This document shows, piece after piece, positions 34,323 through 35,421 of a stretch of DNA of 53,184 bases; position 1 is the stretch's first letter, and every line of letters starts with the position of its first letter. The notes beneath the pieces are model-generated. The model was not told the origin of the DNA. It saw nothing but the letters and a program-made list of their open reading frames with translations, and ran no database searches. The DNA is from Candidatus Poribacteria bacterium (lineage in GTDB: Bacteria; Poribacteria; WGA-4E; UBA9662): the NCBI GenBank assembly GCA_002709695.1, contig PAQF01000029.1, forward strand, positions 1-53,184, in the 5' to 3' direction. Made by a program: the position numbers and the translations under genes.

Positions 34323-35057
34323 TTAGTTCTTAATGTTTCCCCAAGTCATAGCTAATTTACCTTTGAGATCGATAGCCATTGATTCTTGATAGTTTTTCTT
34401 TACCTCTTGGGGAGTTAGGGCACGAAGATAAATAGCGACTTCGTCCATATCACCGTCAAAATACCAAGGCTTAATGAAGTTATTACGGTCATGCCCTACA
34501 GCGACGACAACATGACTAATTCCCGTTCGGGCGGTGATTTTACCTCCCTGGTCACCAGCTGGTGAACCATTTAGATATAATGTCTTGATATCATTCTTTC
34601 CGTCGGCTACATAGGTGATGTGTGTCCATTCTTCAGCTTTTATTGGTGATTTTGTTTTGAAGACACCAAAACCGTCGCCAGCTCGTTGAGTTTCTACTGT
34701 TCCATTTGCGTTCAGTTGTAGCCAAGCGTCACCTCCACCATTGGGGTTATCGTCCCAGATGATAACCTTTGGGGCCTCAGGAAACTTATCGACTTTTATC
34801 CACATAGCATAGGTTAAATCCTGACCTTCTGTTACATCCCCCATAACAATATAGTCTTCCTTGCCATTAAATTTCAGAGCTTCATTGACTTTGCCTTTAA
34901 CGATTTTTGGCCGTCCCTTGATTTCTCCGGGATGCTCGTTCCCAACCTGATCTAGTGCTTCACCTGCGTTAATGTTGGTATTTTTTTTGTCAAAGGTCCA
35001 GTGACTAATTAAGCCGTCCTCTACTGCTTGGCCTTTTGTTGTTGTCGGATGTAGCAT
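34323..35057 (-). CDS. LamG-like jellyroll fold (concanavalin A-like) protein, N-terminus probably frameshifted
   Basis: 244 aa from the internal ATG at 35057. The LamG/laminin_G_3 domain fills most of it: LISHWTFDKKN, LKFNGKEDYIVMG, TYAMWIKVDKF, EEWTHITYVADG, LYLNGSPAG and YFDGDMDEVAIYLRALTP. These domains bind glycans and usually sit in exported proteins. The frame upstream of 35057 encodes a hydrophobic stretch (FIFLAVITSLML) with no start codon. An ATG at 35112 in another frame encodes MELRINYKF, so removing one base near 35085 would restore a normal signal peptide. As it stands the protein may stay in the cytoplasm or not be made. The structured leader at 35150-35366 lies just upstream. 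Confidence 0.7.
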   Translation of the reverse strand: MLHPTTTKGQAVEDGLISHWTFDKKNTNINAGEALDQVGNEHPGEIKGRPKIVKGKVNEALKFNGKEDYIVMGDVTEGQDLTYAMWIKVDKFPEAPKVIIWDDNPNGGGDAWLQLNANGTVETQRAGDGFGVFKTKSPIKAEEWTHITYVADGKNDIKTLYLNGSPAGDQGGKITARTGISHVVVAVGHDRNNFIKPWYFDGDMDEVAIYLRALTPQEVKKNYQESMAIDLKGKLAMTWGNIKN

Positions 35058-35160
35058 TAGTGATGTTATAACGGCCAGAAAGATGAAATTTATAGTTTAT
35101 TCTAAGTTCCATTACCATCTTTATTAGCGTCCGAATATTCTGAGTTTAGATGTCAAATAA

Positions 35161-35200
35161 ATAAGGAAGCGTAGGTTAATTACACCCTACGCTTCCTTAT
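35161..35200 (-). terminator. intrinsic terminator of the structured leader
   Basis: A perfect 15-bp stem (35161-35175 with 35186-35200) with a 10-base loop, followed on the reverse strand by TTATTT. Confidence 0.75.
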
Positions 35201-35258
35201 GTAGGTGGTTACGTTCTGACCACCTCTTACGAATTGATCATGGGAGGTGCTCTGTCCC

Positions 35259-35300
35259 TTAAGAGACAGCACCTCCCATGATCATGTCATAATTAGACAT
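35259..35300 (-). CDS. 13-residue leader peptide or micropeptide
   Basis: The ORF encodes MSNYDMIMGGAVS. GGAGG lies seven bases before the ATG, the best ribosome site in the neighbourhood, and a plausible promoter is about 37 bases further up. The second half of the ORF forms one arm of a 15-bp hairpin, so translation and folding would compete. No known peptide family is recognised, and no modification enzyme is nearby. It may be a leader peptide sensing translation, or a chance ORF in a structured RNA. Confidence 0.4.
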   Translation of the reverse strand: MSNYDMIMGGAVS

Positions 35301-35421
35301 TTGACCACCTCCTTTTTTCACGGAGTATCTGAGGGTAGTATATAATGTAACCCTTAAAAGAGCAAACTTTTTTGGTATGAGCTGCCTTTACACTTCCATC
35401 GTTCTGTATAGTGTTGCAGCC

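Follow-up and report, generated by a model that had tools for sequence, protein, structure and literature searches.

A conserved RNA element with a micro-ORF in Candidatus Poribacteria, and its possible role as a ribosome-dependent leader

The locus considered here lies in a 53,184-nucleotide stretch of DNA from a Candidatus Poribacteria bacterium (contig PAQF01000029.1 of assembly GCA_002709695.1; hereafter the window), whose reverse strand carries, from 35365 to 35155, one member of a family of elements from this phylum. Read along that strand, the unit opens with a sigma70-like promoter (35365-35337), composed of the -35 hexamer TTGCTC (35365-35360), a 17-nt spacer and the -10 hexamer TATACT (35342-35337), with an equivalent site in relatives; this is followed by AAAAAAGGAGGTGGTCAAATG and by a 13-codon micro-ORF (35300-35259) that encodes MSNYDMIMGGAVS and ends in a stop codon. 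The extended Shine-Dalgarno (SD) sequence, AAAGGAGGTGGTC, occupies 35315-35303, its 3' half opening a pairing segment that we term a, and its GGAGG (35312-35308) lies exactly 7 nt 5' of the ATG at 35300. Further along are a long hairpin, P2 (35284-35235), a 7-bp hairpin of the form AGGTGGT..ACCACCT (35225-35203) and an intrinsic-terminator-like structure (35200-35155), in which a perfect 15-bp stem (35200-35161) is directly followed by TTATTTATTT within a T-rich tail. A co-directional gene for a LamG protein comes next (Laminin_G_3, PF13385, E=4.3e-22; 35057-34323).

A preliminary description of this locus had already reported the promoter, the GGAGG and its spacing, the 13-codon ORF, the 7-bp hairpin, the perfect terminator stem and the twofold occurrence of AGGTGGTCA, all of which we recover, and both the ORF and the stems proved to be conserved in related genomes; the original observation is thus confirmed as real, and it was understated. 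The hairpin that it had placed over the second half of the ORF does exist, although instead of 15 bp it has 22 predicted pairs together with outer extensions. Likewise, a LamG gene does follow, but the called start at 35057 lies about 100 nt past the terminator stem rather than the roughly 50 bases given. Compared with the sister species (G001), the signal-peptide region of the LamG gene between 35118 and 35040 of the reverse strand seems to carry a one-base frameshift, so that the called ORF begins too late; the comparison suggests a true start near 35113-35118, the shift being due either to assembly error or to early decay of the gene. An automatic scan had listed neither the promoter, because TTGCTC matches the -35 consensus only in part, nor the terminator, because its 10-nt loop exceeds the limit of the scan. 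The 183-nt RNA of the window unit has a predicted folding energy of -89.1 kcal/mol, compared with -42.7 +/- 4.4 in dinucleotide shuffles (z = -10.6, 0/200).

Across the phylum we gathered 16 loci from 15 genomes of Candidatus Poribacteria, spanning 8 genera and 4 families, by means of a 321-bp DNA query, a search for an exact pattern and two models, one based on sequence alone (R1) and one structured (R2). The members are G000 (one locus), G001 (two), G002, G003, G005, G006, six g6 species, G019, G021 and G084, giving one copy per genome everywhere except in G001; the named records bearing the element are Candidatus Poribacteria metagenome-assembled genomes (MAGs), and all comparisons draw on assemblies of this type. 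The DNA query alone returned single-locus matches in the sister species and in family f4, and 14 of the 16 loci fall with clear similarity in families f1, f2 and f4. Lower scores were obtained for G084, which belongs to another family of the class (E=1.9e-5), for G002 (E=0.005) and for the second G001 copy (E=0.016), in each of which the promoter, the SD, the ORF and the hairpin can nonetheless be read. From the large f3 family, represented by 59 genomes of the order, these models recovered no member. Outside Poribacteria, a search for the exact pattern in 84,980 species genomes and in viral contigs produced only chance matches, mostly within coding sequence, and the structured model applied to 387 genomes, about 300 of them from other phyla, found no convincing member beyond this phylum. 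One genome of another phylum (G318; L181) has AGAAAGGAGGTGAT, a short ORF and a hairpin with GGGAGGTGC that resemble the element (E=0.0075), probably by chance. The absence of a fitting named riboswitch or leader class, remarked upon in the preliminary description, is borne out by Rfam release 15, which has no match to the window element at the gathering threshold; at a relaxed threshold the top scores are far under their cut-offs (22 bits versus 86) and belong to unrelated types. In searches of the open-access literature for small RNAs and riboswitches of Poribacteria, none of the papers listed gives an account of such an element in its title or abstract.

Two of the loci depart from the common arrangement. 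The second G001 copy (G001:C58:2351-2444; L088) is diverged, its ORF ending in MTMRGVIS and a stop, with seven T residues directly 3' of P2; therefore P2 would itself be the terminator there, and a translating ribosome could block it. In G016 (g6; L006 / L062) the SD has been lost through a deletion located 3' of the -10 region and 5' of the ORF, with the ORF, hairpins and terminator kept, and in this single MAG natural loss and assembly error are indistinguishable. Separately, G033 carries an extended SD sequence, AAGGAGGTGATC, after a TTGACA promoter-like site and just 5' of a small ORF of the DUF433 type by eye (G033:C72:78171; L160); this site is outside the element family.

The promoter is TTGCTC-17-TATACT in G001 and resembles TTGACA-17-TATGCT in other genera, and the SD of the relatives, AAAGGAGGTGATC, is a perfect 13-nt complement of the 3' end of Poribacteria 16S rRNA, GGCTGGATCACCTCCTTTCT. 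All lineages keep an NTG start codon (ATG, TTG or CTG) located 7-9 nt 3' of GGAGG, and an ORF of 39, 42 or 45 nt (13-15 codons) that is always in frame and ends at the corresponding place in TAA, TAG or TGA. The predicted peptides are MSNYDMIMGGAVS and MSNYDMIMGGVIS in g1, MCLSQTVVGGNCSF in g2, and, with the initiating residue taken as M, LADFSGMVKGGADS in g3, SFSGMVKGGAAS in g5, LPSSGMIKGGAVF in g6, LSSGMIKGGAVF in g8, LPSCSGMIMGGAVS in g9 and IDSQMTKGGLRFS in G084. Shuffling yields a similar ORF at a frequency of 4.5-7% in each lineage; the product of these frequencies would overstate the significance, since the lineages are related. Among five g6 species the ORF is 100% identical, compared with 86% for the downstream coding sequence (69% at the codon position that varies most) and about 20-43% for the upstream region, which therefore points to constraint on the RNA besides any constraint on a peptide. 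A second GGAGG lies inside the ORF, where the codons GGA-GGT show no variation across the alignment even at their third positions; it may serve as an internal anti-SD site.

The RNA can adopt two alternative pairings around this ORF. In hairpin P1 (35307-35279 in the window, with GACATGATCA as the mid-ORF strand) segment a, comprising the SD tail and the start codon (GTGATCATTCTG), pairs with a mid-ORF segment b (GGAATGATCA). Segment b has an alternative partner, c, on the 3' flank of the P2 core, and this pairing extends P2, which contains the 3' half of the ORF and whose loop holds the stop codon in each of the six aligned genera (at the apex in G002; G084 differs). In nine sequences from six genera, 94% of the alignment cells at P1 and P2 positions are paired, and covariation reaches 0.271, compared with 0.200 +/- 0.014 in shuffled alignments (0/500) and at most 0.162 in a control with slid partners. 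The a:b pairing is better than with shuffled partners in 10/10 members (p <= 0.044); for b:c the corresponding values are p <= 0.061 in all ten and below 0.05 in nine, and folds of the individual members have z from -3.0 to -9.6. Hence a:b and b:c are conserved states that exclude each other, the start of the micro-ORF being masked in only one of them, and their superiority to shuffles in essentially all members suggests a bistable switch on micro-ORF initiation. The earlier proposal that ACCACCT of the 7-bp hairpin masks the ribosome site did not hold up: that hairpin is present only in the genus of the window and its match is weaker in the sister species, where the SD is AGGTGATC. The conserved masker of the SD tail and start codon is segment b within the ORF. 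A repeat or REP origin of the 7-bp hairpin is rejected, as it has a single copy in the genome even when three mismatches are allowed. Its sequence GGTGGTCAGAACGTAACCACCT recurs as an exact 22-nt match in the sister species, apparently within a coding region (G001:C142:7823-7844; L015; E=0.001), probably by chance.

We then considered the genes beyond the element. It precedes dapB in five genomes (G003, G005, G006, G019 and G021), at an equivalent location in four genera of two families; a 3-keto-disaccharide hydrolase gene in six g6 species; a LamG gene in both g1 species, including a homologue in the sister species; EutN/CcmL in G084; prephenate dehydrogenase and then cytidylate kinase in G002 (both by eye); and, at a distance of about 360 nt past the second copy in G001, a probable GH3 gene (by eye). 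Strong palindromes can originate in repeats, and the whole unit might be attributed to a repeat or mobile palindrome, to hairpins formed by chance or to an error of assembly; this is contradicted by its near-uniform single-copy occurrence in independent assemblies of 8 genera, by its constant position before dapB, and by the covariation and reading-frame conservation described above, such that we regard it as exceedingly improbable. The examined dapB genes of g1, g6 and f3 lack the element, and therefore dapB does not require it; a dapB-specific leader is rejected on this ground. Lysine attenuation of dapB is also rejected, given that the micro-ORF has only one Lys codon, replaced by Met in g9, again upstream of dapB. 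In the g7 Poribacteria dapB itself occurs as two tandem diverged copies in 7/7 genomes examined (L102/L125, L109/L126, L110/L127 and others).

The downstream gene is co-directional in 6/6 contexts (p = 1/64 under random orientation) and is constant within clades, while the upstream neighbours vary. Furthermore, the distance from the T-run to the next start codon is merely 15 nt in G084, 17 nt in G002 and about 25 nt in g6, which leaves no space for a promoter after the terminator; these genes would therefore be reached by readthrough. A strong terminator follows the element in all members other than the diverged second G001 copy. The succession of promoter, leader ORF, hairpins, terminator and gene is the one expected of a classic ribosome-stalling attenuator of the trp/erm type, in which a stalled ribosome allows an antiterminator to displace the terminator. 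However, pairing of the terminator 5' arm with upstream sequence lies within the range of shuffles (p 0.08-0.77), except in the most distant member, G084 (0.017), and the best such pairing is weaker than the terminator stem in all members compared; moreover, the micro-ORF has no run of codons for a single amino acid and tolerates an exchange of Lys for Met at a conserved position. We accordingly hold a classic attenuator to be improbable, and of the two suggestions in the preliminary description, an attenuator or leader-peptide switch or else a small RNA with a micropeptide, the former stands only in so far as gene order favors a cis-acting leader, no consistent antiterminator being present. 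It may also be imagined that suppression of the micro-ORF stop codon lets ribosomes cross the terminator and so prevents termination, and the frame after the stop is indeed open through the terminator in G002, g8, g9 and G084. Yet an in-frame stop occurs well 5' of the terminator in five of the six g6 species, the g1 frame closes soon after the ORF, and the longer frame as such lacks conservation; g6 and g1 contradict this model, which we reject and to which we assign a very low probability.

In light of the co-directional adjacency, the clade-wise retention of the neighbour and the gaps of 15-25 nt, we favor the view, which we consider to have a slightly better than even chance of being correct, that the element is a uORF-bearing leader RNA of the following gene, in which loading or passage of ribosomes on the micro-ORF affects readthrough of the terminator. 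Under this proposal, the strong promoter would yield an RNA whose 12-13-nt SD draws in ribosomes, and these would read the 13-15 codons of the ORF up to a stop that lies within P2, in most cases in its loop. Pairing of b with a would mask the SD tail and start codon, while pairing of b with c would extend P2 and free the initiation site, the outcome being set by ribosome loading or passage together with the order of synthesis. Most transcripts would stop at the terminator, and expression of the gene beyond it, which lacks space for its own promoter in several clades, would come from readthrough. We infer that the ORF is probably translated, that the choice between a:b and b:c may be regulated and that this choice may affect readthrough. 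As the conserved switch concerns micro-ORF initiation and no base-paired antiterminator was found, readthrough would have to be influenced by some further step. Against the leader proposal, too, are the lack of a common pathway among the downstream genes, the dapB genes of g1, g6 and f3 that lack the element, and the limited force of a co-direction test with p of only 1/64, one of its contexts being the GH3 gene, assigned by eye at some 360 nt. Regulatory leaders are often present several times per genome, and the element is nearly always present once.

The same facts bear on a stand-alone small gene, specifying a highly expressed RNA of about 185 nt that would be a micropeptide mRNA, a dual-function small RNA or both, would act in trans, and would have an incidental neighbour or one reached only by leaky readthrough. 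Nearly all members have their own promoter and strong terminator, downstream genes are unrelated between clades, the ORF is better conserved than the neighbour's coding sequence, the antiterminator is absent, and the a:b/b:c switch targets the initiation of the micro-ORF itself. Yet the next gene is always co-directional, with 15-25-nt gaps in three contexts, and it is the downstream neighbour that stays constant within clades as those upstream vary. We rate this alternative as the chief competitor of the leader proposal, a serious one that nevertheless falls short of an even chance.

Comparison with known systems draws out what is distinctive about the element. The leader-peptide attenuators trpL, ermCL, tnaC and the vmlR and bmrB leaders share with it a promoter, a strong SD, a short ORF overlapping a hairpin, a terminator and a co-directional gene, but the Poribacteria element differs in having no pairing that rivals the terminator stem, no run of starvation codons and downstream genes that are unrelated between clades; furthermore, its competing pairing masks the start of the leader ORF itself, not the ribosome site of the next gene. 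The hok and tisB mRNAs encode type I toxins and have masked ribosome sites; as in the element, a local hairpin covers the start region in competition with a segment made later, although the 13-15-residue Poribacteria peptides are too short and polar to span a membrane, and inspection of examples such as MSNYDMIMGGAVS and MLPSSGMIKGGAVF found no membrane-spanning stretch. SgrS/SgrT and Spot 42/SpfP are small RNAs of dual function, each with a coding sequence for a small peptide. RyhB/RyhP is another (PMC5331693). The element resembles these three in being a short RNA, in having a promoter and a terminator to itself and in carrying a tiny ORF, and departs from them in that the ORF forms the structural core, from P1 to the P2 loop, and that the neighbours are co-directional and very close. 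In its size and degree of structure it is typical of the bacterial cis- and trans-acting RNAs in Rfam, where it has no match.

Taken as a whole, the element resembles a switch, of a kind not described so far, whose operation would depend on the reading of a tiny ORF by ribosomes. As a more specific and tentative proposal, which we consider rather less than likely, it might represent a ribosome-gated leader class particular to Poribacteria, in which one of two exclusive hairpins contains the start of the micro-ORF and the loop of its counterpart contains the stop, in which loading at a site fully complementary to the anti-SD would control readthrough without a base-paired antiterminator, and in which the module would have been re-used before unrelated genes. 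Its geometry, with an SD fully complementary to the anti-SD, a start codon in one hairpin and a stop in the loop of the next, is directly testable. We conclude that this uncultivated phylum harbours a well-supported RNA/micropeptide family that seems not to have been described before. As a leader, it would link the loading of ribosomes to readthrough during transcription with no need of the customary antiterminator, ahead of unrelated genes; as a stand-alone gene, it would furnish a highly conserved peptide of 13-15 residues, or an RNA.
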